A stretch of DNA of 44,747 nucleotides. It comes from Clostridia bacterium (GTDB taxonomy: Bacteria > Bacillota > Clostridia > Christensenellales > Aristaeellaceae). Positions 24,485 to 43,208 of this stretch are shown here, one piece after another (within the stretch, counting starts at the first letter, position 1; each line of letters starts with the position of its first letter). The position numbers were made by a program, and so were the translations under genes. Under the pieces are notes generated by a model, which saw nothing but the letters and a program-made list of their open reading frames with translations, did no database searches and had not been told where the DNA came from. The stretch covers positions 1 through 44,747 of the forward strand of contig JAFQOD010000029.1 in the NCBI GenBank assembly GCA_017395685.1, read 5' to 3'.

Positions 24485-24489
24485 TCACT

Positions 24490-27196: not shown

Positions 27197-27224
27197 AGTT
27201 AAAAGCTGAAGATACTTAAAGGAT

Positions 27225-27410
27225 ATGGAGGTGAAAAAATGCTTGTTTATTTTATGCTCTCTGAAAAAAATGGCGATATATATCAGTATCGTGGCTGATT
27301 TACTGGGTCATGCCGATACCAGGATGATTGAAACAACCTATGCCCGCACTCGTCACGAAGGTATTATGAAGCAGCGCAACGAAATAGAGGCATTGAATGC
27401 TTTTCTGTAA
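27225..27410 (+). pseudogene. C-terminal tail of a tyrosine recombinase (integrase)
   Basis: Only about 45 residues resemble the family: VADLLGHADTRMIETTYART is the classic end of phage and ICE integrases, with the LGH histidine box and the catalytic tyrosine in TTYAR. All upstream catalytic arginines are missing. It lies 180 bases before two direct copies of a tRNA 3' end, the usual target of such integrases, so it is probably what remains of an excised or collapsed element. Confidence 0.7.
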
Positions 27411-27562
27411 AGGAAATGCACCGCCCATTGCACCGGGGATTTTGCCGCAAGCCCTTGTATTTCCTTGCTTTTCCCTGTCAAAGAAACCCGGCGTTTTGCA
27501 CTTGGAATTGCACTTTTCTGTATTTTTGCTCTGAGTTCATAAACTAATCCAAACCAAAAACG

Positions 27563-27591
27563 AAAAAAGCCTTGAAAAATCAAGACTTTTT
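27563..27591 (-). terminator. Terminator after tRNA-end copy 1
   Basis: On the minus strand CTTGA / TCAAG stem followed by GGCTTTTTTCG, directly after the CCA of the first tRNA-end copy. Confidence 0.55.
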
Positions 27592-27623
27592 CACTGGTGG
27601 GATTAGTAGGACTCGAACCTATG
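27588..27623. repeat. 36-bp direct repeat containing a tRNA 3' end, copy 1
   Basis: Identical over 36 bases to 27801-27836. On the minus strand it reads CATAGGTTCGAGTCCTACTA then ATCCCACCAGTGAAAA: the T arm, acceptor 3' strand and CCA of a tRNA, and a few bases beyond. The remaining tRNA body is absent. It is interpreted as an attachment-site half left by integration into a tRNA gene. Confidence 0.75.
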
Positions 27624-27778
27624 TCTACAATTCGCAATAGGGTTCTATCTTCGCTGCCGCTCGCTATAACCCTTTGCTCATTGGGCCTTCGCCTCACTTT
27701 ATCACCCACGGGGTGCGCTCGGCTGCGGCCCCCCCACGATCGTGGGGACCACGGTTCAGCGTCCCATAAACCGCACAA

Positions 27779-27803
27779 AAAAACCACCCACAAGGGGTGG
27801 TTT
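27779..27803 (-). terminator. Terminator after tRNA-end copy 2
   Basis: On the minus strand AACCACC / GGTGGTT stem with loop CCTTGT, followed by TTTTTTT, directly after the second CCA end. Confidence 0.7.
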
Positions 27804-27836
27804 TCACTGGTGGGATTAGTAGGACTCGAACCTATG
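27801..27836. repeat. 36-bp direct repeat containing a tRNA 3' end, copy 2
   Basis: Perfect second copy of 27588-27623, same orientation, 213 bases on. The 177 bases between the copies hold no recognisable gene. Confidence 0.75.
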
Positions 27837-27856
27837 ACCCCCACGATGTCAACGGA
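27808..27856 (-). pseudogene. tRNA 3' half, possibly tRNA-Val(GAC)
   Basis: On the minus strand the second copy extends into an anticodon arm. Loop TTGACAT (anticodon GAC if spacing is canonical) precedes stem CGTGG, variable GGGTC, T arm ATAGGTTCGAGTCCTAC and acceptor TAATCCCACCA. The 5' half is missing: no GGGATTA acceptor strand is found nearby and the anticodon stem pairs poorly. It is therefore a truncated, presumably non-functional tRNA. Confidence 0.5.
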
Positions 27857-27962
27857 ATCCGGGAAAGAGGATTTCCTTTACACTTGAAGCCTGTTTCTTC
27901 GCATTTCAAGGTGCAATAAATTAAATTCAAATGAATAAGAATGCAATGGCTCTTTCCTTTTT

Positions 27963-28088
27963 GCTGTCGATGAAGAAGAACAATTCCGTGTGCAGTTTAA
28001 ACCGTCTCTGAAACTCGTAAAGGATATTACAAGAGTTTAAAAAAACATTGAGGAAGTATTTGAATTCATTGAAAATGAGAAAGAGTAA
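27963..28088 (+). pseudogene. Short decayed coding remnant
   Basis: One frame reads EEEQFRVQFKPSLKLVKDIT, a TAA stop, then KNIEEVFEFIENEKE and a final stop. The composition is protein-like and acidic-helical but no start or family is visible. The rest of 27857-28166 shows nothing recognisable. Confidence 0.3.
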
Positions 28089-28166
28089 TGTGTGGTACGA
28101 GAAAATGATCTACCTGCAAATGGTATATTTTCTGATTCAGACGATAGTGTGAGAAAAAATTAGTTT

Positions 28167-28217
28167 TAGGTGTCATAGTATCAATACTTTTTGTGGAAAG
28201 AGTAAATATAATTTACA
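28167..28217. repeat. IS-end-like repeat, copy 2
   Basis: TAGGTGTCATAGTATCAATA then CTTTTTGTGGAAAGAGTAAA, resembling 19911-19960. It adjoins the truncated IS3 transposase and is likely one terminus of that element. Confidence 0.5.
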
Positions 28218-28686
28218 CTGGCGAAAAATATGTGGAAGTATGTTTTGCTGCAAAAGAGATTGCCGCAGAACTTCAAAAGGCTGGCGTAAGGGACTTTGAT
28301 GTCTGTCACCCAGAACTGATTGGGCCGCACCTGATCAAAGCGGCGATTCAGCAGATTGGGATACTTGTGAACAGCCTGCTGGTAACGGGTATATGCCCAG
28401 CGGCGGCGAATCACCGACAGCAGGTTCAGTTTGCGCATCACTCGCAGAATCGCCTTGCGATTCACATGCTTCTTCTTCCGGCACCAGAACCAGCTTTGCA
28501 CCCGCAGGATTCCATAGGTCTGCTTGCTGTGCTGCTGACACTCTACGATCAGATCAACCAGCCACTGATCCTTCGCTTCCTTTCCCTGCCTTTTCCGCCA
28601 TGCGTAATACCCGCTGCGGGATACTTCAAACACCTTACACATCGCTTCAACACTGTACTTCCCACGGAATCGTTCAATGACCCGAT
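28181..28686 (-). pseudogene. IS3-family transposase OrfB, truncated at both ends
   Basis: The frame reads IERFRGKYSVEAMCKVFEVS then RSGYYAWRKRQG, the HTH_21 start of IS3/IS150 OrfB, and continues through RKAILRVMRKLNLLSVIRRR to RPNQFWVTDIK, which includes the first catalytic aspartate of the DDE domain. After that the family likeness stops, so about the last 170 residues with the second D and E are gone. The upstream side is cut at 28686 by the IS30 remnant, removing OrfA. It cannot encode active transposase. Confidence 0.8.
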
Positions 28687-29165
28687 CTTGAATTTACAAT
28701 GTAAGTGCACCAATGAAAAGAAAAAGTGATTCAAAGAGAAAACTCCTTTAGAATAGTGTTTGCGGACAACTAGGAAAGGAGTAAGTCAATGAGCTACTAC
28801 GAACATCTTAGCATAAAAGAGCGGGCAAGTATACCGAATCATTTAATAACGGGGATAGGGAGTCGAGAGATCAGCCGCGTGCTGGAATGAAACGCTGGCA
28901 CGATCGGCAGGGAAATGAAGAGGAATAGCGGAAAGGATGAATACTGGCCAACACAGCAGAAAAGAAGTATAGGAAGCGGAGAAAGAAATGTTGTCGTATC
29001 ATCCATGAATATTGCCCCAAGTCTATTGATCTGGAATCCTTTGATCCCGCGTTCTTCCATATCCTTATCAACAAGATTAATTTTCGCCCGCGCAAATGCC
29101 TCGGCTGGAGATCTCCTTTTGAGGTTTTCTTCAATCTGCTGTTGCACTTGACTTGACAATTCAAG
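28687..29165 (+). mobile_element. Collapsed IS30-family element with terminal inverted repeats
   Basis: The left end CTTGAATTTACAATGTAAGT (28687 on) and the right end TTGCACTTGACTTGACAATT (29142 on) are imperfect inverted repeats of each other. Between them lies only a deleted transposase gene. The element interrupts the IS3 OrfB region, so it arrived later. Confidence 0.7.
28789..29156 (+). pseudogene. IS30-family transposase remnant, internally deleted
   Basis: It starts MSYYEHLSIKERASI with REISRVLE, the N-terminal helix-turn-helix of IS30. A TGA then interrupts before NAGTIGREMKRNS. After one frameshift it reads TAEKKYRKRRKKCCR and runs in one frame directly into the C-terminal INFRPRKCLGWRSPFEVFFN and LLLHLT, the family's last helix. 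The whole DDE core is deleted. AGGAAAGGAG precedes the ATG. Confidence 0.75.
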
Positions 29166-29172
29166 ATAGAAA

Positions 29173-29196
29173 AACCTCCCACAAGGGGAGGTTCAG
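29173..29196 (-). terminator. Terminator after the GH172 gene
   Basis: On the minus strand AACCTCCC / GGGAGGTT stem followed by TTTTTC, about 85 bases past the GH172 stop. Confidence 0.65.
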
Positions 29197-29216
29197 ATCG
29201 TTAACAAAGTGGTCTG

Positions 29217-29257
29217 ACGCGGGAATGAAGCCTTGGGTTTCATTCCTGCGTTTTTTA
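29217..29257 (+). terminator. Plus-strand terminator at the island edge
   Basis: CGCGGGAATGAA pairs with TTTCATTCCTGCG, followed by TTTTTT (29251-29256). It would stop read-through from the IS remnants into the antisense of GH172. Confidence 0.75.
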
Positions 29258-29279
29258 TACAAGTTTTTACATATTAATT

Positions 29280-30386
29280 TCATAATATTTCCAGATCATC
29301 ATCTCCCGGAAATGCAGGAAACGGCGCAGTAGGCAGCGTTTGATACCAGTATGCGGTTGAGCAAATATCATGCTGCCCATGATGATAGCGACCATCGGAT
29401 CGCCAGCCCAACGATTGAACCGTGACCCGAATATCCTTTTCAAAATAAATGGGATCAGGAATATGCCAGCGATACATCCCGAAGCGGGGCTGTAAATGAT
29501 AAAGTTGATCGCCGGGGTAATATTCGTGCATTCCTGCATACAGACCGGAATAGGTCTGATATTTGCCTTCCACTTCCCAATCATACGAACCTAGAAAATA
29601 ATCCTCCGTTCCTGTTCCACAGATTGTAGGGAACTCCCCATCCCCATCCAGAAAAAACTTCACTTCCCCCTCGCCCCACCATAGATTAGGGGTATTGATT
29701 CCCCAGCCCATGGAGGTGCCCACATAATGTCCTCTCCCACATATGCCATCCAGGATGACATATACCTCCATGGCTGGCAAAGGCTTTTTTATGCGGAATT
29801 GTGCATGAAAATATGCACAATTATCCGGCACCTGATCCAGTAGATAGTCTATCTGGTAATATACAGGGATTTCTGCTAATTTGTTTCTATTCTCCAATGT
29901 GATTCTACAGTGTTTCCGAAACGGCATTTTCCAGAAACAGTTGAAGCCTCTGTAGGGCGCAACCTGAATCGGCACAGAATTGAGGGGAAAATAAGGCCCA
30001 GGGGGAGTACCTGTCGGCGAAGGGTTAAACCAGTGCTTGGCAAAAAAATCTCCCAGCGGGCATTCTACAGAAGGCTGCTCTTGCTCGTCCCAATAAATGC
30101 GAAGCACAGCGTCTCTTCCTGCGGGCCCTGCAATCCAAATATGGGTTATTACACCAGGTCCTTCAATGTCCGCCAGCGTTATGGTCTCACCAGGCGCTGC
30201 CTTCACTGCAGGGCTTATCTTCCAACCCTGTCCCAGTTCCCGGGCTGCATTCGCCCCAAATCCCTTTGTGGCCATGCCCCCTTTTCCCTTTTCTCCGGTA
30301 AAATTCTCTGCAGTAATGGAGCGTGAACGGGCATTGGATAAACGGCTCAGCCCCTCCAAGCCCAAATCATGATATGAAAGGTTCAT
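29280..30386 (-). CDS. GH172 (DUF2961) glycoside hydrolase, cytoplasmic
   Basis: A 368-residue DUF2961 protein. The family landmarks are the N-terminal RSITAENFTGEKGKGG, the jelly-roll strand GPGVITHIWI (about 76-85), VECPLGDFF (107-115), WWGEGEVKFF (236-245) and GTGTEDYF (257-264). Glu239 or Glu241 and Glu261 in the last two motifs are the likely catalytic pair. GH172 is known for exo-D-arabinofuranosidases acting on D-arabinan and for difructose dianhydride/alpha-D-fructofuranosidase enzymes. No signal peptide is present, so it should trim imported oligosaccharides. It is divergent from the catabolic operon at 30771 across a shared regulatory region; AAGGAGGAA precedes the ATG. Confidence 0.88.
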   Translation of the reverse strand: MNLSYHDLGLEGLSRLSNARSRSITAENFTGEKGKGGMATKGFGANAARELGQGWKISPAVKAAPGETITLADIEGPGVITHIWIAGPAGRDAVLRIYWDEQEQPSVECPLGDFFAKHWFNPSPTGTPPGPYFPLNSVPIQVAPYRGFNCFWKMPFRKHCRITLENRNKLAEIPVYYQIDYLLDQVPDNCAYFHAQFRIKKPLPAMEVYVILDGICGRGHYVGTSMGWGINTPNLWWGEGEVKFFLDGDGEFPTICGTGTEDYFLGSYDWEVEGKYQTYSGLYAGMHEYYPGDQLYHLQPRFGMYRWHIPDPIYFEKDIRVTVQSLGWRSDGRYHHGQHDICSTAYWYQTLPTAPFPAFPGDDDLEIL

Positions 30387-30416
30387 GCGATTCCTCCTTG
30401 CCTTTTACATTGCTTT

Positions 30417-30546
30417 ACGTATCGTTTCATCTTTCTGTTTCGTGCGCATTTCGTTGCATTTCTGTCGTTCTTTTCTTTCGAGAGTATTATATCGTATATT
30501 TTCCCTTTGCGTCAATAGGGGAAATCAATTATATTCGAAACGTTTC
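30417..30546 (-). promoter_or_regulatory. Promoter of GH172 with two candidate operators
   Basis: On the minus strand TTGACG (30515-30510), 18-base spacer, TATAAT (30491-30486). A downstream ACGTATCGT (30417-30425), an ACG-N3-CGT match to the locus motif, lies in the leader, and an upstream palindrome GAAACGTTTC (30537-30546) lies before the -35 box. The operators are weaker matches than the other four. Confidence 0.5.
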
Positions 30547-30661
30547 TTACTGTAGTGCTTAGTTTTTCTATATTCTGTGCCAATTCCGCCGGTTTTTGAA
30601 CTTTTCTGACGAACATAAGAAATTAATTTTTATTTTTTTAGAAAAATCATGGTTATTTCTA

Positions 30662-30714
30662 TTGATATTTATCCCATTATATGCTATTCTAGTTGAGACA
30701 AAACGTTTCGTCTT
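30662..30714 (+). promoter_or_regulatory. Promoter and LacI operator of the catabolic operon
   Basis: TTGATA (30662-30667), 17-base spacer, TATTCT (30685-30690), then AAACGTTTCGTCTTT with the core ACGTTTCGT at 30703-30711. The core is centred 17 bases after the -10 box, a position suited to repression by blocking initiation. Confidence 0.65.
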
Positions 30715-30770
30715 TCAAATCGGTATTCTGGAAGCCAACAGAACGGATCATTAAAAAGGAGGTATATGAA

Positions 30771-31940
30771 ATGGGTCAGTTTTCATTTAATCTACCCGTA
30801 AAGATTCATTTCGGCACTGGTAAAGCATCTGAAATCGGTAAGATCGTTGCCAAATATGGCAAAACCGCCATGATGGTCACCCGGCCCTGGACGGGCGTTC
30901 AGAAGGCAGCCTTTGAACGGGTGCGCGCCCTGGTGGAGGCCGAAGGCGTGAAGGTGATCGTATTTGACAAGGTCACCCCTAACCCCACCACCTATGCCAT
31001 CAACGAAGGCACCCTCATCGCCAAAGGCGAAAATGTGGATGTGCTTCTGGGAGTAGGCGGCGGCAGCAGCATTGACGCCGCCAAAGCCATCGCCGTAGCT
31101 GCTACCCATCCCGGCCCCGCCTGGGATTATGTATACACCAGCAGCAAGACTGCCGATCCCGCCATTACCCTGCCCATCATTGCCGTTACCACCACCAGCG
31201 GCACTGGATCTCATGTGACCAAATATTCCGTATTTTCCAATCCTGATGTGAAGGTGAAATCCACCATCGTCAACGAGGCAGTATTCCCTAAGGAATCCAT
31301 CGTGGATCCCGAGCTGTGCACCACCATGCCCGCTTTCGTTACCGGCACCACCGGCTTTGACGCCTTTGCTCATGCCTTCGAAAGCTACACCAATATCAAC
31401 GCCAATCCCTTCATCGATTCCATCGCCCTGCAGGCCATTCAATTGATCGTGGAAAATCTGGAAAAGGCCGTCAAGGATCCGGAAAATGTGGAGGTTCGCG
31501 AAAAGATGTGCTATGCCGATACCCTGGCCGGCATCAGCATCGCCAATGTGGGCACCACCCTGCCCCACTCCATGGGCCAGCCCATCAGCGGCAAATGTCC
31601 CTGGGTATCCCACGGCCAGAGCCTGACGCTGGTCTATCCCGAATTCATCCGCCTCACCCAGGCCTCCTGCCAGCAGAAATTTGCCGTCGTGGCCCGGATG
31701 ATGGATCCCGCCCTGAAGGATAAATCCGACGCCGAGGCCGCCGCTCAGCTCAACGGTCTGATCATTGACTGGCAGAAGCGCCTTGGAATCTATACCTCCC
31801 TGGAGGAAATGAAGGTGCCCATGGAGGAAATCGAGGGCCTCACCGCCGACGCCATGGCCTGCCCCGATACCTATGTGAATCCCGCCGTTCCCACTGCCGA
31901 GCAGGTAAGGGAAATGTTCATGAATATGTGGAGCAAATAA
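30771..31940 (+). CDS. Iron-containing alcohol dehydrogenase
   Basis: A 389-residue group III dehydrogenase. GGGSSID (96-102) binds the dinucleotide. The metal ligands are Asp197 and His201 in FDAFAHAFESY, His266 in LPHSMGQP and His281 in VSHGQS. The FucO/1,3-propanediol dehydrogenase family reduces small aldehydes such as lactaldehyde or glycolaldehyde. ATG 30771 has AAAAAGGAGGT eight bases upstream. As the first gene of an operon with an aldolase and an isomerase, it most likely disposes of the aldehyde released by the aldolase, as FucO does in fucose and D-arabinose breakdown; that role is inferred. Confidence 0.9.
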   Translation: MGQFSFNLPVKIHFGTGKASEIGKIVAKYGKTAMMVTRPWTGVQKAAFERVRALVEAEGVKVIVFDKVTPNPTTYAINEGTLIAKGENVDVLLGVGGGSSIDAAKAIAVAATHPGPAWDYVYTSSKTADPAITLPIIAVTTTSGTGSHVTKYSVFSNPDVKVKSTIVNEAVFPKESIVDPELCTTMPAFVTGTTGFDAFAHAFESYTNINANPFIDSIALQAIQLIVENLEKAVKDPENVEVREKMCYADTLAGISIANVGTTLPHSMGQPISGKCPWVSHGQSLTLVYPEFIRLTQASCQQKFAVVARMMDPALKDKSDAEAAAQLNGLIIDWQKRLGIYTSLEEMKVPMEEIEGLTADAMACPDTYVNPAVPTAEQVREMFMNMWSK

Positions 31941-31971
31941 TCATTCATATGCAAAATTGAAGGAGGAGACT

Positions 31972-32661
31972 ATGATGTTGACCCGTGAAGAATTTGCCAA
32001 GATGCAGGATCATTCCATTCTGGAGCCCTATCAGGTATTGGAAGATATCGATAAAATGATCGGCCAGACCATCGAATACGGTTTTAATGCCACCTATGTG
32101 GAGCCCTGCCACGTAAAGCATGCCCGCGAACTGAGCGGCGACAAAGCCAAGGTAGGCACCGTAATCGGATTCCCCTTCGGCACCAACACCACCGAAATCA
32201 AGATCGCAGAAGGCCTGCAGTGCATCCGCGACGGCGCCGACGCCCTGGATCTGGTGATCAACTATTCCATGCTCAAATCCGGCAAGGATGAGTATGTGAA
32301 GAATGAAGTGAATGAATTCGTCAAGGCCATGAAGGCCGAAAACCCCGAAGTGGTGATCAAGGTGATCATCGAATGCTGCTATCTGACCCATGACGAAAAG
32401 GTGCGCGCCATCGTGATCGTCCGTGACAGCGGCGCCGATTTCATCAAGACCTCCACCGGCACCGGCTCCGGCGGCTGCCGCATCGGCGATATCCGCCTGA
32501 TGAAGCGCCTGTGCGGCGAAAAGTGCCAGATCAAGGCTGCCGCCCAGATCACCAATATCGAAGATGCTCTGGCCGTTATCGAAGAAGGCGCTACCCTGAT
32601 CGGCGAAAATACCGCTGTTAAGCTGCTGGCCGATTGGGATAAGGAACGCTGGACCCGCTGA
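31972..32661 (+). CDS. DeoC-family aldolase, divergent
   Basis: A 229-residue class I aldolase of the deoxyribose-phosphate aldolase family. Schiff-base Lys159 is in FIKTSTG, the partner Lys188 is in IKAAAQ, and Asp93 is in ALDLVIN. The phosphate-binding end differs from classical DeoC: the usual GGIRT is AQITN and the usual G(T/S)S is GEN. That suggests a changed substrate or phosphate position. AAGGAGGAG precedes the double ATG. It sits 31 bases after the dehydrogenase and abuts the isomerase-like gene. It may cleave a ketopentose or its phosphate to a small aldehyde plus a triose. Confidence 0.88.
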   Translation: MMLTREEFAKMQDHSILEPYQVLEDIDKMIGQTIEYGFNATYVEPCHVKHARELSGDKAKVGTVIGFPFGTNTTEIKIAEGLQCIRDGADALDLVINYSMLKSGKDEYVKNEVNEFVKAMKAENPEVVIKVIIECCYLTHDEKVRAIVIVRDSGADFIKTSTGTGSGGCRIGDIRLMKRLCGEKCQIKAAAQITNIEDALAVIEEGATLIGENTAVKLLADWDKERWTR

Positions 32662-33213
<552 letters not shown>

Positions 33214-33243
33214 TAAATACCCTGTATTCGAATATACGCAAAC

Positions 33244-33271
33244 GCCCCGCGCTTTCCTGCGCGGGGCTTCT
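33244..33271 (+). terminator. Terminator of the catabolic operon
   Basis: GCCCCGCGC / GCGCGGGGC stem (33244-33267) followed by TTCTTC, 30 bases after the isomerase-like stop and ahead of the convergent LacI gene. Confidence 0.75.
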
Positions 33272-33296
33272 TCAATACATTTCTTACATCAAATCT

Positions 33297-34319
33297 TCAT
33301 ACCGGATTCAGAAGCAGATTGCACACCGATTCCCCATGCACCTGTCGGGTGGGCAGGGTTATAATAGTGGATTGCCCCTGCTTCCCCTTTTCCTCTCCCA
33401 GCCGCTGAAGCATCAGTTGCGCTGCCTGATGCCCAATCTCCGTCAGGGGCTGCTCAATTACCTCCAGGCGCGGATGAAAGATATTACAAAGCTGCATATT
33501 GTCAATGCAGATGATTGAAAGCTCCTGCCCGATCAGCACATTCTTCTCATTGCAGGCCATAATCATCCCCAGCGTCATATCATAATTCGTAACCAATAGG
33601 GCCGTCATATCCGGCGATTCCTCCAGCATTTTTATCGTCTGTTCATAGCCGGACTGAACGGTATAATCACCATAACCCACAAAACGCTGTTCAGGAAAGA
33701 TTCCGTTCTTCAGCATGGCATGACGGAAACCAAGCAAGCGTTGCTGAGAGGTAAAAATATCCTGTGGACCGGCAATGATGCCAATATTCCGATGACCGTT
33801 GGCAATAAAATACTCGCAAGCCTTCTGAGCTGCGCCAATATTATCGATCAGTACAGCATCCAGCTTGCAGTCACTGACGACCCGGTCTATCAGCACGATG
33901 GGGATTCCACGGTCAATGGCAGGCTGCAGGTTTTTCTTGCTGTGGCAGACTGGCATATTGATCATACCATCCACCCGCTTTCCCAGCAGGAAAGAGATGG
34001 CGTCCGCTTCCCGCTGTACGTCCGTCCGGCAATCGCAGACAATAACCCCTAAATTATGCTGACGCAGCACATCCTCCATTGCGGAAATAATACACGCAGA
34101 AAACTGTATGCTTAATTCCGGGATCACCACGCCAATGGTTCCCGAGTGGCCCGTTTTCAGGCTTCTTCCAAATTCGTTTACATGATAATCAAGTTCTTTG
34201 ATTGCCTGATCGATCTTGATTCTGTTCTTTTCTAGAACATTCCCGCCGTTGAGGTATTTCGAGATGGTTGCCAGGCCCAGCCCGGTGTGCCGGGCTATAT
34301 CCTTGATTGTGACCGCCAA
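33297..34319 (-). CDS. LacI-family repressor of the GH172/GH183 locus
   Basis: A 340-residue regulator. The helix-turn-helix TIKDIARHTGLGLATISKYL begins at residue 4, with a hinge region and a binding core containing VLIDRVVSDCKLDAVLIDN and the C-terminal IEQPLTEIGHQAAQLML. The start is a TTG, chosen because GGAGGG lies six bases upstream and no in-frame ATG fits. It has its own promoter (TTGACA/TATAAT). Lying between the catabolic operon and the importer operon, it is the natural reader of the ACGTTTCGT sites. Confidence 0.9.
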   Translation of the reverse strand: MAVTIKDIARHTGLGLATISKYLNGGNVLEKNRIKIDQAIKELDYHVNEFGRSLKTGHSGTIGVVIPELSIQFSACIISAMEDVLRQHNLGVIVCDCRTDVQREADAISFLLGKRVDGMINMPVCHSKKNLQPAIDRGIPIVLIDRVVSDCKLDAVLIDNIGAAQKACEYFIANGHRNIGIIAGPQDIFTSQQRLLGFRHAMLKNGIFPEQRFVGYGDYTVQSGYEQTIKMLEESPDMTALLVTNYDMTLGMIMACNEKNVLIGQELSIICIDNMQLCNIFHPRLEVIEQPLTEIGHQAAQLMLQRLGEEKGKQGQSTIITLPTRQVHGESVCNLLLNPV

Positions 34320-34352
34320 TGCATTCCCTCCTGATAATCGCTTGATTTTATT

Positions 34353-34382
34353 ATTATATCGCGCCTGGCAGAATTTTGTCAA
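34353..34382 (-). promoter_or_regulatory. Promoter of the LacI gene
   Basis: On the minus strand TTGACA (34382-34377), 18-base spacer, TATAAT (34358-34353). No ACGTTTCGT core is seen here, so it may not be autoregulated. Confidence 0.65.
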
Positions 34383-34463
34383 TTCATCACCTCCTGGATC
34401 GTCAAAACATGAAACCCGGTGATTTACGAAGCAATAACAAAGCATAGTAAAATACACATATGT

Positions 34464-34503
34464 AAAAACTGCGCCAGGATGCTGATAACCGTCCTGTCGC
34501 AGT
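34464..34503 (-). terminator. Terminator of the importer operon
   Basis: On the minus strand ACTGCGACAGGA pairs with TCCTGGCGCAGT, one bulge, followed by TTTTT, directly after the permease stop. Confidence 0.8.
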
Positions 34504-34510
34504 CATGCTT

Positions 34511-35338
34511 TTATCCCTTGAGACCGGATATCTTGATTCCTTTGACGATAAAGCGCTGGAAAAACATGAATAGCATGATGGGCGGTACGGCCGCAAGAAA
34601 GGAGCCGGCCATCTGCACGCCATAATGTATATTCCGTTCCGTGCGGAAAAACGCCAGTTGCTGCATGATGGGATATAGTTTCGTTTTCGATATTGTAAGC
34701 AAGGGCCAAAGATATTGGTTCCAGTACCCAACGAACGCGCCAAAGCCCACGATTACAAAGGGGGCAGCAGACATGGGGATGAACACATGAATCAGCGCCT
34801 GCACCCTGTTGCCACCGTCAATCTGAACGGCTTCCTCAAGGGAAAGAGGAATACCCAGGAAATACTGACGCAAATAAAAGATATGCCCGGTCTGAGCTAC
34901 GCCAGGAATAATCAGCACGGCCATGGTATTCAGCATTCCCATTTTGTGTACCACTACATAAGAGGGGATCAGAATAGCAATGCTGGGAATAAACATGGGT
35001 AATAGGCAATATGCCCAGAGCAGCTTTTTTCCTTTGAAATCAATCCGCGCAAAGCCATATGCAGCCATGGCGTTGATGATCAAGCAGCATGTCGTGGATA
35101 TGCTGGCACCCAGCAGCGTTGTCAGCATGGAATTGGGGAAATTCTTATGGGTCAGTACCTTGCTGTAATTGGCCAGATTTGAAAAGTTATCTGGAAAAAA
35201 GGAAAAGGGAACCCGATATACCTCTGTTTTCTCTTTGAAGCCAGTCATCAGCATCCAGATGAGCGGAGCCAAAGAAATCAGCACGACAATGGCGCTCAAG
35301 GTAAGATACAGTAATTTCAGCAGTTTATTCTGTTTCAT
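34511..35338 (-). CDS. CUT1 sugar ABC transporter permease (second)
   Basis: A 275-residue six-helix permease. The EAA loop reads LSLEEAVQIDGGNRVQALIH, and the C-terminus FQRFIVKGIKISGLKG is typical of MalG-like partners. An ATG at 35353 would overlap the previous stop as ATGA; the ATG at 35338 has AGGTGG upstream, so either may be used, with coupling in both cases. No ATPase is encoded in this operon. Confidence 0.9.
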   Translation of the reverse strand: MKQNKLLKLLYLTLSAIVVLISLAPLIWMLMTGFKEKTEVYRVPFSFFPDNFSNLANYSKVLTHKNFPNSMLTTLLGASISTTCCLIINAMAAYGFARIDFKGKKLLWAYCLLPMFIPSIAILIPSYVVVHKMGMLNTMAVLIIPGVAQTGHIFYLRQYFLGIPLSLEEAVQIDGGNRVQALIHVFIPMSAAPFVIVGFGAFVGYWNQYLWPLLTISKTKLYPIMQQLAFFRTERNIHYGVQMAGSFLAAVPPIMLFMFFQRFIVKGIKISGLKG

Positions 35339-35349
35339 TTTTTCCCACC

Positions 35350-36294
35350 TCATTCCATGGATTTTTCTGAGCTGATCAGGCGGAAGATCACGGCTGTCAG
35401 TCCGGCTAGCAACAAGAAGATCACAAGGGACGCTGCTACCGTATAGCCCAGGCTGGTATCATTGATGAAGTGTGTATAGATGTGCAGATTCGGGGTGGTG
35501 GTACTGTACAAAGGCCCGCCATGTGTGATCAGATTGGGCAATTCAAATACCTGCATGGAGCCCACAATGGAAGTTACAAGCAGATATATGAATACGTTCC
35601 GCATAGAGGGCAATGTGATTTTATACAGCTGCTGGAAGGCATTCGCTCCATCGATGGACGCCGCTTCATAATAAACCGTTGGGATATCATTCAGACCGGA
35701 TAGCATGATCAACGTAGTACCGCCAAGACTCATCCATATCGCAGGAATCGCCACAGCCAGCATGGCGTACTTGGTGTCCGTAACCCATCCGATTCTTTTG
35801 ATCCCTATTTTCTCCAGCAGCACATTGGCAAGGCCGCTGTCATAATCGTAAATGAAGATGAAAATGACAGAGGTGATAACGCCGGAAATGACGTTGGGAA
35901 TATAAATCGATGCTTTGAAAATGCCGGCTGCCTTCTTAGGAATACGGATCATCAGATTGGCGAGCATAAATGCCAGCAGTAGTGAGGCAGGGATTACGTA
36001 CAGCATATAACGGAAAGCTGTTTTGAAGGTAGACCAAAACACGGTGTCATGAAGCACCCGCTGGTAATTTTCAAAACCTACAAATTCAGTGCCCGTATAT
36101 AGGCTCACGTCATATACACTGGAAAACAAAGCGTAGATCATTGGAATAATTGCAAAAATCGTTATCAGCAACAATGCTGGAATAACCAGAAGCATTCCTT
36201 CAAGGTTATTTCGCAGTTGACGTGTCAACTGCCGCCTGCTGCGTTTCGGCCCTTTCGAGGCCGTCAACCCTGTGATATGCCTTTCATTCATCAC
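35350..36294 (-). CDS. CUT1 sugar ABC transporter permease (first)
   Basis: A 314-residue six-helix permease with a basic cytoplasmic N-terminus. The EAA motif reads YYEAASIDGANAFQQLYKIT (about residue 210), the UgpA/MalF-like form. It follows the binding-protein gene across a large hairpin and overlaps the next permease. Together they import the oligosaccharide captured by the binding protein, powered by an ATPase from elsewhere. Confidence 0.9.
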   Translation of the reverse strand: MMNERHITGLTASKGPKRSRRQLTRQLRNNLEGMLLVIPALLLITIFAIIPMIYALFSSVYDVSLYTGTEFVGFENYQRVLHDTVFWSTFKTAFRYMLYVIPASLLLAFMLANLMIRIPKKAAGIFKASIYIPNVISGVITSVIFIFIYDYDSGLANVLLEKIGIKRIGWVTDTKYAMLAVAIPAIWMSLGGTTLIMLSGLNDIPTVYYEAASIDGANAFQQLYKITLPSMRNVFIYLLVTSIVGSMQVFELPNLITHGGPLYSTTTPNLHIYTHFINDTSLGYTVAASLVIFLLLAGLTAVIFRLISSEKSME

Positions 36295-36320
36295 GTTGAT
36301 TTGCCTCTTTTCTTATAATT

Positions 36321-36376
36321 AGGGTTGCGAATAAGAAGCCTATATCCGCTGAAACGGCCCCTTTATTCGCAACCCT
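36321..36376 (-). promoter_or_regulatory. Intercistronic hairpin after the third binding-protein gene
   Basis: AGGGTTGCGAATAA (36321-36334) pairs perfectly with TTATTCGCAACCCT (36363-36376) across a 28-base loop, 14 bases past the binding-protein stop. No T run follows. It is the third hairpin in this position in the window. Confidence 0.75.
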
Positions 36377-36389
36377 GACGAATATCAGA

Positions 36390-37694
36390 TTAGTTCTTCA
36401 GGTTCTGGCCTGCCAAGCCGAAATTCTCAATATATTTGTTTACCTCGTCATCGGCAATGCGAAGCGCTTCCTCTGCATCATATCCTTCCAGCAGAATTCG
36501 ATTGACCGCCCTACCGAAGGCATAGGTTACCTCCCAGGGGTAGATGGGTTCGGGAATGGAATAGGGGATTACGGTATCCATAACCGTTTCCAGCCAGGGA
36601 TTGATGCTGTAGGTATCGGCCTGCGCAATCATGCTTTCAACTGATTTCCATGGCGAAAACTTAGAAAAATGAGACCGTTCAAAGAAATCGTACATGACAG
36701 CCGGATCGCGGGTAAACATCCATACCAGGAAATCTGCGCATTCTTGAGGATGCTCCGTTAGTTTATCCATTAGCACGCAATAGCCGCCCATGGAGGCAGT
36801 GGCATGATCATAGCTTCCATCTGGTGTCGGAAAATGGCTGACGCCGATTTTATCCACCATCTCGGGATAATCAATGAGTACCGTTGCCAGTGACCAAGAA
36901 CCGGTCATCAGCATGGCGCACCGGTTTTCACACAGTGCATCAATGGAGCCGTAGCCATAGATGGCCTGCTCTGGAGCAATATTCGCCCAGTAGACATCAT
37001 TGAAAAAATTTGCCAACTGATGATATCCTTCTAGTTCGCTCATGCGGCTCTTTGACCAATCGTCATTCAATGCCAGACTGCCGCTGAGGCCATACTGCAT
37101 CCCCCAGGTGGTCCAGCCGATATCCGCCTCGTTGGTGGGAATATGAAGCCCCCAGCATGTATCCGTTTTAAGCTTCTTTCCCGTTTCAATCAGTTCGTCC
37201 CATGTGGTCGGAGGCATTTCGGGATCCAGGCCTGCCGCTTCAAACAGATCCTTACGCCATAGCAGCATGGCGGAAGGCTCCAGATACCGTGGGAAGCTCC
37301 AGTAAGAACCGTTGATATAGGTATACTGCCGCGCCACATCCGTCAGATCCTCCCAGATGGCAGGATCGACGTATTCATCAAAGGCGAGCACAGTACCGTT
37401 TGTTACGTTACGCCCCGCATCTGCCAGCGGCATCCCGTAAATATCAGGGGCAGTTCCGGCGGCTTGTGCTCCTTTCAGTTTTACATTCCAGCCGTCCATC
37501 GGCACCCATTCAAGTTCAACATATACTTCGTTCTGTGAATTGTTATACTCCTCAATCCATTCCTCCCACCAGGCATCACTGTACTCATCCTGGGGATAAT
37601 GCCAAAAGATGATTGTTGTGCGCGCAGCGAAAGCATTGGGTATGCAGACCAGCAATAATGCTATCGTTAGGAACAGTGCAACAGCTTTTCTCAT
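36390..37694 (-). CDS. CUT1 oligosaccharide-binding protein, secreted
   Basis: A 434-residue extracellular solute-binding protein. The leader MRKAVALFLTIALLLVCIPN ends in AFA before ARTTIIFWHYP, a signal peptidase I site without a lipobox. The mature start IIFWHYPQDEYSDAWWEEWI and GTAPDIYGMPLADAG are typical of family 1 binding proteins, and the tryptophan-rich lobes suit an oligosaccharide. It is the first gene of the importer operon; a core operator lies just after its -10 box. The ligand is inferred to be D-arabino-oligosaccharides from the neighbours. Confidence 0.9.
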   Translation of the reverse strand: MRKAVALFLTIALLLVCIPNAFAARTTIIFWHYPQDEYSDAWWEEWIEEYNNSQNEVYVELEWVPMDGWNVKLKGAQAAGTAPDIYGMPLADAGRNVTNGTVLAFDEYVDPAIWEDLTDVARQYTYINGSYWSFPRYLEPSAMLLWRKDLFEAAGLDPEMPPTTWDELIETGKKLKTDTCWGLHIPTNEADIGWTTWGMQYGLSGSLALNDDWSKSRMSELEGYHQLANFFNDVYWANIAPEQAIYGYGSIDALCENRCAMLMTGSWSLATVLIDYPEMVDKIGVSHFPTPDGSYDHATASMGGYCVLMDKLTEHPQECADFLVWMFTRDPAVMYDFFERSHFSKFSPWKSVESMIAQADTYSINPWLETVMDTVIPYSIPEPIYPWEVTYAFGRAVNRILLEGYDAEEALRIADDEVNKYIENFGLAGQNLKN

Positions 37695-37752
37695 GTGTTA
37701 CCTCCTTTTCAATCTGGAAGTGCGATAGTGGATAGGAAATACCAATCATGCC

Positions 37753-37800
37753 GTAACGTTTCGTTACTTTTATTATAACACATCCGCTTTTTGATTGCAA
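37753..37800 (-). promoter_or_regulatory. Promoter and LacI operator of the importer operon
   Basis: On the minus strand TTGCAA (37800-37795), 17-base spacer, TATAAT (37777-37772), then the perfect inverted repeat GTAACG-AAA-CGTTAC (37767-37753), the most symmetrical copy of the locus motif. Confidence 0.75.
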
Positions 37801-37842
37801 TACTTATTTATAAATTATGATTTGGAAAAATTTATCACACTA

Positions 37843-37901
37843 TTGACAAGTTTTGCCCGTGGTTTTATAATGTAGCCACGCACAAGGCATAACGTTTCGT
37901 C
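37843..37901 (+). promoter_or_regulatory. Promoter and LacI operator of the GH183 gene
   Basis: TTGACA (37843-37848), exactly 17 bases, TATAAT (37866-37871): full consensus. ATAACGTTTCGTC follows at 37889-37901, centred 25 bases after the -10 box. A strong promoter with a tight operator suits an inducible secreted enzyme. Confidence 0.8.
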
Positions 37902-37997
37902 TTGTCTATTGACCGTCAACTTTCTGTACAATGTGTTTTCCATCCGTTCATGCCACTGCTGCTGCAAAACTGTTTTTGTTAAAAGGAGGTATTCTAC

Positions 37998-40160
37998 TTG
38001 CACTATCGGACGCTTCTTATCCTTGTTATTATATTGGTAGCAATTTTTCTCCCTTGTGGACTGGCAGATGAGTTTTCTGGCGACCAACTGGCAGCCGGAT
38101 GGCGGACGGTTTGTCCGCTTCCCGAATCCAAGCAAACCATCGTAAACGGCGTTGTCAGCCTGATTAATGCACAGGGTGCCAGCCAAGATCGTCAGGATCT
38201 GGGATGCAAACTCCTGCGTCCTGCCCTGGACGGGGACTGGGTGATTGAAACACACATTCTGGATCTTAAGTGCCAGGACGCCTCCAATGCCTATGGGCTG
38301 CTCCTGTATAATGATTCCGACAATTATATTACCTTGGCTCGCACCCAACAGGGGGTGACCGCCTACGGTATGCTGGATGGAAGCTTCCAGCAGCTTTTTG
38401 AAGCCGAAGATGCTGACTTTCTGCGGATCAAAAAGAATACCCGGCTTCAACCACATGCAACCTACGCATTTTACACTTCCTTTACCTCCACCGGAAGCTG
38501 GAACCACGTCGGAAATTATGTTGATGAAACTGGTCTGTTCAACGGCGCTGAATACGGCCTGCTGGGGGCCGGTCAGGCTGCCGGATATGCGATCTTTGAT
38601 TTCTTCACAGATGCCGTTTTAGAATCCGTCTATGATGATTTTAATGTGCCCAGCTTGGATCTGGGGCTTTGGCGACAGACGAAAAATGGAACGCTGGCCA
38701 CCGGTGGCACCCTTAACGGCACCTTTACCACGCCTACCAAGGGGAATCCCGGCTTTCTCATGCGCGACCCAATGCACGATGAGTATATCATCGATACGCG
38801 TCTTTCCTTCCGGTCCACCAGCAACACCAGCTGCGCTGGCTTATCTATTGAAAAAGGGAATGATTATCTTTTCTTCGGCGCTCAAGGACCCGGGGAAATT
38901 AAAGCAACCGCCTATGTTGATGGTGAAGAAGAAACACTTTTCCTTCTGGAGCATAGCGGTAACTGGCTGCGTATCCGCCGCTTCCCGGATCATTACCTTT
39001 TCGAATGCAGCTATGACGGCATTGAATGGGTACATTGCGGAACATATGACGATCCTCAGCGCAGTTTCTCTGACGCCTCCTATGGACTGGCTTATCAGAG
39101 CAAAATTCCGCTAATGAAGGTGCAATATGATTTCTTCCGAGAACGCCCCCTTCCCCAGGGTATTATCCAGGGAGTGGAATCTATCCATGAAATCGGCCAG
39201 CTATTGGGCTCCAGTGGAAGCAAGCTCATCAACGAAACTATGAGTACTTATAATGTAAACGGCGCCGATATCGGCAACATGGTAGATGCCGGGGATAAGG
39301 TATACATGATGTTCGGGGATACATTCAGCGGTTATAAAACCGGTTCCTGGCGGGCTAATACCCTGGCCGTAATCACCGATACGGATCCATCTGATGGGCT
39401 GACCTTCGACTACTACATCACCAATCCTCGAGGCCATGCCAAGGAGGTCATAACCTCCCGCCATGTAGATTATGAAGATATGACCAGCATTCCTACCAAC
39501 GGTGTCTATCTCAACGGCAGACTATATTATCACTATTTTAACGTATTCCATTGGGGAGCGGCCTCCCATTGGGATTGCAATTACAGTTCCTGGGCATATT
39601 CGGACGATGGTGGAAATACTTTCGTTAAGGCAAAGCCCTTCTGGGACAAGGATACCAATTTTATTCATGTTTCTATTGTGGAGGAAGGCGATTATCTCTA
39701 TATTTTCGGTATCCCTAGTGGCCGCTTTGGCAGTGTCAAATTGCTGCGGGTGCAGAAGGAAAGCATTCTTGTTCAGGATGCCTACGAATACTATGCCGGG
39801 AAGGCAGCAGATGGCCGAGAAATCTGGATCGATAACGAATATGACGCCATTTCGCTGACCCCAGCCTACACCGGAGAATTATCCGTGGTATATAATCCCG
39901 CTATCAGGCGATATGTGATGATCTATCTGAATGAAAACACCTTCGATATCGAGTTGCGAGAGGCAGAAGCACTGACAGGACCCTGGTCTGCTCCAGTAAC
40001 GCTGGTGGATCATAACATTGATCATTATTGCCTGTGGGTCAATTGCCCCTATATGCTGCCCCGGTATGTAATGGAGGATGGCAGTTTCTATTTCACCCTT
40101 TCCAAGGGCACTCCCTATTGTGTATTCTGGGAATACGTTAAGCTGGAATTGGCTCCTTGA
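37998..40160 (+). CDS. Secreted GH183 (DUF4185) enzyme with two N-terminal beta-sandwich domains
   Basis: A 720-residue exported protein. The leader ends in GLA before DEFSGDQ. Residues about 25-205 and 211-395 are tandem concanavalin-like beta-sandwiches (DDFNVPSLDLGLW...; WIHC-type blocks), likely carbohydrate binding. Residues about 395-715 are DUF4185: NVNGADIGNMVDAGDKVYMM then FGDTF (Asp424 and Asp441 conserved), WRANTLAVITDTDPSDGL, SIPTNGVYLNGRLYYHYFNV and WAYSDDGGNTF. DUF4185 is GH183, whose characterised members are endo-D-arabinanases. The start is a TTG with AAGGAGGT seven bases upstream. It would cut extracellular D-arabinan into importable pieces. Confidence 0.85.
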   Translation: MHYRTLLILVIILVAIFLPCGLADEFSGDQLAAGWRTVCPLPESKQTIVNGVVSLINAQGASQDRQDLGCKLLRPALDGDWVIETHILDLKCQDASNAYGLLLYNDSDNYITLARTQQGVTAYGMLDGSFQQLFEAEDADFLRIKKNTRLQPHATYAFYTSFTSTGSWNHVGNYVDETGLFNGAEYGLLGAGQAAGYAIFDFFTDAVLESVYDDFNVPSLDLGLWRQTKNGTLATGGTLNGTFTTPTKGNPGFLMRDPMHDEYIIDTRLSFRSTSNTSCAGLSIEKGNDYLFFGAQGPGEIKATAYVDGEEETLFLLEHSGNWLRIRRFPDHYLFECSYDGIEWVHCGTYDDPQRSFSDASYGLAYQSKIPLMKVQYDFFRERPLPQGIIQGVESIHEIGQLLGSSGSKLINETMSTYNVNGADIGNMVDAGDKVYMMFGDTFSGYKTGSWRANTLAVITDTDPSDGLTFDYYITNPRGHAKEVITSRHVDYEDMTSIPTNGVYLNGRLYYHYFNVFHWGAASHWDCNYSSWAYSDDGGNTFVKAKPFWDKDTNFIHVSIVEEGDYLYIFGIPSGRFGSVKLLRVQKESILVQDAYEYYAGKAADGREIWIDNEYDAISLTPAYTGELSVVYNPAIRRYVMIYLNENTFDIELREAEALTGPWSAPVTLVDHNIDHYCLWVNCPYMLPRYVMEDGSFYFTLSKGTPYCVFWEYVKLELAP

Positions 40161-40179
40161 AAAAATTTCAATAAAAGAC

Positions 40180-40232
40180 TTGCCAAATCGAAGGCTATAT
40201 GTTATAATTGAGCAAAACCGTAACGTTTCGTC
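40180..40232 (+). promoter_or_regulatory. Promoter and LacI operator of the beta-helix gene
   Basis: TTGCCA (40180-40185), 17-base spacer, TATAAT (40203-40208), then GTAACGTTTCGTC (40220-40232). The operator core is centred 19 bases after the -10 box. Confidence 0.75.
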
Positions 40233-40263
40233 TTTCTGTAAAAATAAAAAGGAGGATTTTCCA

Positions 40264-41598
40264 ATGAAAAAGTTTTTGCTCGTATGTCTGCTGGTTCTGT
40301 CCATCGCATTGCTTCCCCTCACCGGTCTTTGCCAAGAAGGCATAACGTTGGATCTTTCCAAGGGTGATGTTATTATCACTGCCGATGGCTATACCCAGGC
40401 TGAGAAGACAGAAAAGGCCGCGGGGCCCTATACCATCATCCAATCCGATCCTGCAGTTCCCGGTTTACTGAGTGTCAACGGTGCCAAGGTTGAGATTACG
40501 CTTGTGAATCTGGCCCTGGCGAATGCTGCTGCCAGCCCTATTGATATTTTCAATGAAGCGCAGGTCACCCTGATCTTTGACGGTATTAACACTCTGGATG
40601 GATCTCTTGCTGAGAACAAAGCCGGGCTTCGTGTCGCCACCGACAGTGCCCTCATCCTCCAGGCCGCCAATGAAGATGCATTTCTGGATGTAAAGGGCGG
40701 CTTCCATGGCGCCGGCATTGGCGGCAATAATGAAGAAACTGCCGGATCCATTACCATCAAAAATGGCACCATCAACACGCTGGGTGGCGTTGCAGGCGCT
40801 GGCATTGGTGGTGGTTTTTCGGGCCACGGCGGCAATATCACCATTGAAAACGGCTATATCATCGCTACCGGCAACGAAGCCGGCGCAGGCATCGGTGGCG
40901 GATGGATCGGTAATTGCGGCAATGTGGTTATTCTGGGTGGCGTGATTGAAGCAACCGGTGGTGCCCGTGCTGCAGCCATCGGCAACGGCTCTGATATGGG
41001 CGGCGGTTTCATTACCATCAAGGGCGGAACTATCAATGCCACTGCTGGGCTTTCCTCCTCCGCTATCGGCGGTGGTCTGATGAGCCAGCAGGGTTGCACC
41101 ATCGTTGTGGAGGGCGGCATTGTCAACGCCACTGCTGTGCAGGACGGCGCAGGCATCGGCTCCGGCTTTGCCATCAACTACGCTACCAAGGATGGCGGCA
41201 CACTGCTGATAACCGGCGGCTCCGTAACTGAATACAGCACCGGTTACGAATACCTGAACGCTATTGTCACGCTCCGGGGCGGCGAATATATGTCCAAGAC
41301 TACCATTACTGACGGAATTATTCTGGAAGGTGGCACACTGAAGATCATGTCCACTGGTCGATCCGTGGTGCCTCAGCCCATTGCTTCCGTGGAAGATACC
41401 GCAGAAATCGTTATCAATTACCATACCAAGGATGTGGAAGACGCAGAAACCGTATATAAAGTAACTGGCGATTTCGTTTTGCTCACCACCAAAAATCCCG
41501 AAGTGACTGCTGAATGCTTTACCATCCACGGCGCTCCCGATGCCAAACTGGTTGGTACGGACGCAAACGATATCGTTTCCTTCACTATCGTAAAATAA
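40264..41598 (+). CDS. Secreted beta-helix protein co-regulated with GH183
   Basis: A 444-residue exported protein with leader MKKFLLVCLLVLSIALLPLT, ending near GLCQEG. From about residue 125 to 330 it carries six or more repeats of the type GAGIGGG-x-GHGGNITIENGYI-ATG, about 22-30 residues each, the signature of a glycine-lined right-handed parallel beta-helix. Such folds occur in lyases, glycosidases and adhesins; no catalytic motif was recognised. AAAAAGGAGG precedes the ATG. It has the locus operator and its own promoter, so it belongs to the regulon; it may bind or cleave a side chain of the target polysaccharide. Confidence 0.8.
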   Translation: MKKFLLVCLLVLSIALLPLTGLCQEGITLDLSKGDVIITADGYTQAEKTEKAAGPYTIIQSDPAVPGLLSVNGAKVEITLVNLALANAAASPIDIFNEAQVTLIFDGINTLDGSLAENKAGLRVATDSALILQAANEDAFLDVKGGFHGAGIGGNNEETAGSITIKNGTINTLGGVAGAGIGGGFSGHGGNITIENGYIIATGNEAGAGIGGGWIGNCGNVVILGGVIEATGGARAAAIGNGSDMGGGFITIKGGTINATAGLSSSAIGGGLMSQQGCTIVVEGGIVNATAVQDGAGIGSGFAINYATKDGGTLLITGGSVTEYSTGYEYLNAIVTLRGGEYMSKTTITDGIILEGGTLKIMSTGRSVVPQPIASVEDTAEIVINYHTKDVEDAETVYKVTGDFVLLTTKNPEVTAECFTIHGAPDAKLVGTDANDIVSFTIVK

Positions 41599-41670
41599 TC
41601 ACAGCCTTAAAAGACAGCAGGAGGCATTGCTGTCTCCTGCTGCAAAGAGTTCTCTAATTTGTTCTTCGCT

Positions 41671-41721
41671 CCCTGCGTACAGCCGTCCGGAAGCCATTTT
41701 CCGCTGCACGCAGGGCTTTTT
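41671..41721 (+). terminator. Terminator after the beta-helix gene
   Basis: CCCTGCGT-CAGC pairs with GCTG-ACGCAGGG with single-base bulges, followed by CTTTTTAT. A second hairpin without a T run (41616-41641) lies just before it. Confidence 0.65.
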
Positions 41722-43048: not shown

Positions 43049-43208
43049 TTGCGTTTTGATACATTAATCAGTATCAAACGTAGTATATGGTTTTAGGATT
43101 TGGATATCATAGGAATCTTTGCGTGTTGGTTTTGAGGGTTTCCAAACATCAACAGCAAAATGAAATGAATGTGCAGTGCAAATCAATAGAACGAGGAAGT
43201 GGAATTTG

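Follow-up and report, generated by a model that had tools for sequence, protein, structure and literature searches.

The question raised by this locus is whether a member of the Clostridia carries a gene set for the use of D-arabinan, which occurs in cell walls of the mycobacterial type, and, if so, how much of the pathway is encoded there. The window analyzed in this study is a stretch of 44,747 nt (contig JAFQOD010000029.1, positions 1 to 44,747, GenBank assembly GCA_017395685.1; Clostridia bacterium, family Aristaeellaceae), and the gene cluster in question lies at positions 29280-41721. An initial annotation, made without database searches, had named a DUF2961 protein, a DUF4185 protein, a CUT1 importer, a LacI repressor, and a dehydrogenase-aldolase-isomerase operon. 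All of these genes were present in a Pfam scan of ten cluster proteins, and each was confirmed by its profiles. We consider it very likely that the locus is a LacI-repressed gene set for the use of alpha-linked D-arabinan of Actinomycetota, the target polymer being arabinogalactan, lipoarabinomannan, or arabinomannan. D-arabinan had been proposed as the substrate from the start; it is supported by family matches, predicted catalytic residues, synteny, and operator-like sites, and its use is the best reading of the locus.

The proposed route would begin outside the cell, where a secreted glycoside hydrolase of family GH183 (DUF4185) would cut the polymer internally. D-arabino-oligosaccharides would then be taken up by a sugar-binding protein (SBP) and two permeases, with an ATPase presumably encoded elsewhere, and a cytoplasmic GH172 (DUF2961) would free D-arabinose from the non-reducing ends. 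A sugar signal would lift the LacI-family regulator off operators that closely follow the promoters of four units, those of the importer, GH183, a beta-helix protein, and an iron-containing alcohol dehydrogenase (Fe-ADH). This order of external endo-cutting, import by an ATP-binding cassette (ABC) transporter, and internal exo-cleavage agrees with the initial proposal and is likewise supported by the families, catalytic residues, synteny, and operators.

The GH172 and GH183 enzymes

Profile searches placed both enzymes in the families that had been predicted for them. The putative intracellular exo-alpha-D-arabinofuranosidase GH172 (29280-30386, minus strand) matched the DUF2961 profile (PF11175) at 286.7 bits (cut-off 27), and the putative secreted endo-D-arabinanase GH183 (37998-40160, plus strand) matched the DUF4185 profile (PF13810) at 237.6 bits (cut-off 39.5). 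These are the single DUF2961 and the single DUF4185 match in the 2.83-Mb genome, and neither family was detected in any of 14 control genomes. Inspection by eye revealed no hydrophobic leader at the N-terminus of GH172, in agreement with the predicted lack of a signal peptide; hydrophobic leaders were seen on GH183, as expected for an exported DUF4185 protein, and also on the SBP and the beta-helix protein.

The best solved relative of the GH172 is the exo-alpha-D-arabinofuranosidase ExoMA1 (8ic8, 351 bits), followed by the difructose dianhydride enzyme alphaFFase1 (7v1v, 132.5 bits) and by 4kq7 (120 bits). The score gap to alphaFFase1 alone is no proof of specificity, because DgGH172c of Dysgonomonas gadei (8ah3, identified by locus number), which has been proven active on D-arabinan (PMC10115798), matched at just 111 bits. 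The catalytic Glu pair (E233/E254 of DgGH172c) is aligned in the GH172 of the locus. In alphaFFase1 numbering this pair is presumably E270/E291. It has been reported that the position of Asn253 in ExoMA1 and Gly299 in alphaFFase1 decides between arabinose and fructose specificity (PMC10509167). The locus enzyme has Asp, a bulky residue, at this position, and across 48 GH172 sequences (five contigs counted twice) the column contains N in 24, C in 14, D in eight, and a gap in two. By pairwise comparison the protein scores higher with ExoMA1 than with alphaFFase1 and lacks the Gly, the two marks taken here to place it in the exo-alpha-D-arabinofuranosidase clade. Use of alpha-D-fructofuranosides or difructose dianhydrides, the other activity of GH172, would account for the shared family and the 132.5-bit match to alphaFFase1; we regard it as extremely improbable in view of the far stronger match to ExoMA1, the Asp in place of Gly, and reports of D-arabinan activity for GH183 (PMC10509167; PMC10115798). 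The difructose dianhydride reading of the GH172 itself was set aside on the scores and this residue. Contig C3 of relative G025 contains seven DUF2961 matches, indicating that GH172 is expanded in some members of the family.

The GH183 matched the solved EndoMA1 (8hhv) at 145.2 bits. D33, D51, and E243 of EndoMA1 have been shown to be essential (PMC10509167). Equivalents of these residues and of W138 and R198 are kept in the locus GH183, and in every aligned GH183 sequence that spans them (67 aligned; the counts of aligned GH172 and GH183 sequences include six contigs twice). The DUF4185 domain is preceded by a GH43_C2-like N-terminal part.

Regulator, operators, and promoters

The LacI-family regulator (33297-34319, minus strand; PF00356, PF00532, and PF13377) was assigned a TTG start by eye. 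Upstream regions of the cluster share a 13-bp operator pattern, ACGAAACGTTWYG. The exact pattern occurs four times in the 2.83-Mb genome, and all four copies are in the locus, which bears out the shared operators of the initial annotation. With up to one mismatch, eight matches were found in the genome, six of them in the locus; the reversed pattern, used as a control, gave 27, and both one-mismatch sites outside the locus lie inside open reading frames. Within the window the six matches compare with 0.03 expected in shuffles. These same sites served to define the pattern, and what carries information in the counts is therefore its confinement to the locus. All five operator sites are intergenic, though 89% of the region is coding.

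Each of the four exact operators is directly preceded by a promoter-like site, with 7, 8, 10, or 16 bp between the -10 box and the operator. A position shortly after the -10 box is a usual place for a repressor site. The spacing is 7 bp for the SBP gene (promoter-like site 37772-37800, 10 of 12 positions; operator 37752-37764), 8 bp for the Fe-ADH operon (plus strand, 30662-30690, weak at 9 of 12; operator 30699-30711), 10 bp for the beta-helix gene (40180-40208, 11 of 12; operator 40219-40231), and 16 bp for GH183 (plus strand, 37843-37871, TTGACA-17-TATAAT, 12 of 12; operator 37888-37900). The fifth site, with one mismatch (30536-30548), is upstream of the promoter-like site of GH172 (minus strand, 30486-30515, TTGACG-18-TATAAT, 11 of 12). 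The LacI gene has its own promoter-like site (34353-34382), which, together with that of GH183, is one of the two that match at 12 of 12 positions. As a class, promoter-like sites are not enriched in the window (23 found, 19.3 expected). Control of the whole gene set by one repressor, as had been suggested, is supported by the operator-like sites common to its units; we infer that the LacI protein binds these sites and that a sugar signal would be the inducer.

One member of the gene set was added by its own copy of the operator. It encodes an exported beta-helix repeat protein (40264-41598, plus strand; PF18889), a putative surface accessory.

Importer, synteny, and distribution

The importer is encoded on the minus strand by an SBP gene (36390-37694, SBP_bac_8/SBP_bac_1, exported by eye) and the genes for CUT1-type permease 1 (35350-36294) and permease 2 (34511-35353), both matching PF00528. 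The SBP and permease 1 are conserved in GH183 clusters. Permease 2 shares 41-50% identity with its counterparts in most GH183 clusters, and other permeases of this type reach 21-31%; loci L056, L078, and L084 have permeases of the weaker identity class only. No ATPase was found by Pfam among the ten cluster proteins. The presumed ligands of the transporter are D-arabino-oligosaccharides.

DUF4185 was detected in ten of 200 genomes of the same family: our genome, seven others with a best match of at least 249 bits, and two with weak matches only. In the seven other strong genomes GH172 is on the same contig as GH183 in six and directly adjacent in five. A wider survey of GH183 yielded 44 other loci from named genomes, which by record title comprise 24 from Bacillota (Paenibacillus, Cohnella, Gordonibacillus, and Clostridia metagenome-assembled genomes), 17 from Actinomycetota, and three from Thorarchaeota; because L091 and L094, from one genome, may be fragments of a single GH183 gene or cluster, the 44 loci may represent 43 genes. 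Neighbors were sought with tblastn up to 10 kb away or as far as the contig reached, and matches over 60 bits were counted. GH172 was near GH183 in 20/24 Bacillota and 14/17 Actinomycetota loci, and the SBP in 21/24 and 15/17, respectively. GH183, GH172, and the importer recur together in both phyla, which answers the proposed check for conserved synteny. LacI genes were near GH183 in 13 of 24 and 13 of 17 loci, although these proteins are too distant to show orthology. GH116 is not universal, being found in nine of the 44 loci (4/24 Bacillota, 5/17 Actinomycetota).

Relatives of Fe-ADH, DeoC, and the isomerase were not detected near GH183 in any of the 44 loci. None of the partners (GH172, SBP, LacI, GH116, or DUF6259) was found in the three loci titled Candidatus Thorarchaeota archaeon (L067, L071, and L092). 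The GH183 domains of these loci are 37-39% identical to the query, and the contigs, shorter than 7.5 kb, showed no partner genes by tblastn.

A further protein, DUF6259 (PF19773; e.g., L087:14319-16580; loci L055-L098), was found near GH183 in 20/24 Bacillota loci and in none of the 17 from Actinomycetota. In an alignment of 19 cluster sequences, 20 columns hold an invariant Asp or Glu, as might be expected of an enzyme, and the cluster DUF6259 is a candidate for a new D-arabinan-active enzyme. The profile gave no match in the PDB at E ≤ 1, and no paper containing the word DUF6259 was found in the open-access literature. An arabinan-only role for the whole family was rejected, since DUF6259 matches occur in 50 of the 200 family genomes (37 over the cut-off); it is the cluster subfamily alone that is linked to arabinan loci.

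The Fe-ADH operon and sugar catabolism

The operon at 30771-33213 (plus strand) encodes an Fe-ADH that is aldehyde reductase-like (30771-31940; PF00465/PF25137), a DeoC-like class I aldolase (31972-32661), and a cupin of the D-lyxose/D-mannose isomerase family (LyxI, 32677-33213; PF07385, 30.2 bits, cut-off 20.8). It is tied to the regulon through the exact operator at 30699-30711, and by this site it appears to belong to it. The initial annotation had inferred catabolism of the freed D-arabinose. An assignment of this step to the operon is not supported: the locus has no kinase and no FucI/AraA-type isomerase, and the operon genes were found in 0/44 other GH183 loci. We rejected the idea that Fe-ADH and DeoC are linked to arabinan clusters in general, on this count and on the other-genome matches given below. 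D-arabinose catabolism by the operon is also unsupported because the isomerase family adjoins alpha-mannosidases in relative G107 and elsewhere in our own genome. The operon is no recognized D-arabinose pathway.

Sixteen NCBIfam models matched the Fe-ADH, all at scores below their own cut-offs, and a scan of 199 other genomes gave no Fe-ADH match at E ≤ 1e-100. The aldolase is over the cut-off of the equivalog profile for deoxyribose-phosphate aldolase (TIGR00126, 182.3 vs. 117.3 bits) and keeps the Schiff-base Lys motif. Two elements that we take to be the usual phosphate site of DeoC are altered, the Gly-Gly to AQ and a Ser to Asn. Both are kept in all 19 of the best-scoring other-genome DeoC relatives compared and in the two best solved relatives; a DeoC relative on contig C11 of our genome lacks the Gly-Gly and keeps the Ser. 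The best match of the aldolase in another genome is 40% identical.

The operon could be an ordinary neighboring module with a similar operator, e.g., for deoxyribose use by an aldolase and an acetaldehyde reductase. The score of DeoC over the deoxyribose-phosphate aldolase cut-off fits this explanation, as do the lack of the operon genes from the surveyed loci and the GC content at third positions, which is 0.69 for Fe-ADH and 0.72 for DeoC vs. 0.47 to 0.58 for seven other in-frame genes. We nevertheless find it unlikely, since one of only four exact operators in the genome is 8 bp after the -10-like box of the operon, though the promoter-like site is weak. A different role under the arabinan repressor would be a non-phosphorylative fermentative route for sugars released from D-arabinan. 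In it, a DeoC-type aldolase with no need for phosphate would cleave the C2-C3 bond of a free aldose, e.g., D-arabinose, to give glycolaldehyde and glyceraldehyde, and NAD would be regenerated as the Fe-ADH reduces the aldehyde. This route is speculative and has, in our judgment, a small chance of being correct. Searches of the open-access literature on lyxose isomerase with D-arabinose and on phosphate-free DeoC, including passages of PMC4012138, yielded nothing that decides the role of the operon.

LyxI matched the solved D-lyxose isomerase 2y0o (220.6 bits), the structure 7nzo (208 bits), and no NCBIfam model at E ≤ 0.001; its substrate may be mannose, lyxose, or another sugar. A LyxI homolog of relative G107 belongs to a gene run that also includes GH172, two GH38 alpha-mannosidases (one truncated where the contig ends), a mutarotase, a PfkB kinase, and a mannitol-dehydrogenase-like gene, which suggests a role with mannose. 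In locus L129 the homolog is divergent from ribokinase and RpiB, which suggests a role with pentoses. The true substrate could thus be mannose-capped arabinomannan or lipoarabinomannan, with LyxI turning D-mannose or D-lyxose into the ketose and D-arabinose handled by unlinked genes. The family of the isomerase, the G107 run, and a second lyxose isomerase of our genome (310.8 bits) that adjoins a GH38 gene agree with this possibility; it is opposed by the lack of an alpha-mannosidase among the ten cluster proteins scanned, by the pentose-type neighborhood in L129, and by the gene lists of five (L129-L132 and L136) of 11 further loci from relatives, in which no GH38 was seen by eye. It deserves consideration, but we are inclined to doubt it. 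A separate observation is that the GH172/GH38 cluster of G107:C2 (L051 / L177) resembles a lipoarabinomannan or arabinomannan cluster. The proximity of LyxI to GH172 in L136 (G047) was rejected as real linkage; it is probably due to chance, because the intervening genes appear on inspection to have housekeeping roles.

Points that weigh against D-arabinan use

Several observations weigh against D-arabinan use, or against a complete pathway for it. Pfam and NCBIfam scans of the cluster genes revealed no kinase and no FucI/AraA-type isomerase, and no GH116 match was detected in the genome, which is about 96% complete; the completeness claimed by the initial annotation was therefore not borne out. 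The two DUF6259 genes of the genome (contig C64) are not of the cluster type by tblastn, and without either enzyme beta-capped ends may remain on the polymer. The GH183 is just 37-41% identical to eight relatives, has the extra N-terminal region, and carries Trp in place of Tyr293 of EndoMA1, as seen by pairwise alignment (this column of the multiple alignment is mostly gaps, an artefact). To these can be added the low score of the D-arabinan-active DgGH172c. The exact operator pattern was absent from the 54 loci of relatives scanned. None of the ten other genomes listed as the same genus has GH183, and the locus may for this reason have been acquired. Elsewhere in the genome there are a ribulokinase and a xylulokinase (both FGGY kinases) and two Fucose_iso_C matches, so a phosphorylating D-arabinose route through unlinked genes is possible.

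Other features of the window and genome

Left of GH172, visual inspection of the region 27590-29280 showed part of an IS3-like transposase (28181-28642) and two copies of a stretch resembling a tRNA 3' end (about 27595 and 27806); ARAGORN detected no tRNA. The transposase piece and the tRNA-end-like copies look like insertion remnants. Genes for GH43, GH31, a BNR-repeat protein, a Gfo/Idh/MocA oxidoreductase, a sugar-binding protein, and GH13 with a downstream LacI gene are located at 3375-27196. At the other end of the window (43176-44747) lies a gene that runs off the contig end; its 240-nt tandem repeats are rich in CxxC motifs, and the N-terminus of the protein looks leader-like by eye. 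Another uncharacterized sugar locus of the same genome lies on contig C64 (about 22500-36300; L146, L179), where the two DUF6259 genes share one stretch with permease-like genes, an Fe-ADH-like gene, a kinase of the FGGY family, and a DeoC-like aldolase that is 30% identical.

Comparison with known systems

The initial annotation had considered a Gram-positive version with its own importer to be new. This is refuted by the polysaccharide utilization locus (PUL) of Microbacterium arabinogalactanolyticum, which already has such an importer and is called by its authors seemingly typical for gram-positive bacteria (PMC10509167). In that PUL, secreted GH183 and an SBP_bac_8 ABC importer are accompanied by intracellular GH172 and GH116 and by genes for a putative isomerase and a putative kinase; induction by D-arabinose has been measured (PMC10509167). 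Among the matches listed by searches of the open-access literature, we found no paper on a D-arabinan locus of Bacillota.

The combination of GH183, an ABC importer, and GH172, by which a Gram-positive D-arabinan PUL can be recognized, is present in our locus: secreted GH183, the SBP_bac_8 importer, and intracellular GH172 are common to it and the Microbacterium PUL. The two differ in that the Microbacterium PUL has four GH183 genes, the GH116 ExoMA2, and the putative isomerase and kinase, while our locus has one GH183, no GH116, and the Fe-ADH/DeoC-like/LyxI operon under a shared operator. The main text of PMC10509167 does not contain the word regulator. PUL42 of the Bacteroidota member D. 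gadei shares GH172 and GH183 with our locus, and its enzymes have been assayed on D-arabinan; it has three genes for DUF2961, two for DUF4185, and a predicted fucose isomerase that is abundant (PMC10115798), in contrast to one DUF2961, one DUF4185, and an ABC importer here. The difructose dianhydride I synthase/hydrolase alphaFFase1 (PMC8605356) has the same GH172 family and catalytic Glu pair; however, its substrates are alpha-D-fructofuranosides, and its Gly299 stands at the position of the Asp in the locus GH172.

With this locus, the likely range of D-arabinan use widens to Clostridia, including some from the rumen, and to Paenibacillaceae, and pairs of GH183 and GH172 may serve as tools for mycobacterial-type cell walls. 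Two testable leads are the DUF6259 tied to GH183 clusters of Bacillota and the divergent aldolase operon apparently under the arabinan repressor. Compared with the systems described so far, this is probably a D-arabinan locus of a type that has been described before, here in another lineage and with a different co-regulated operon.

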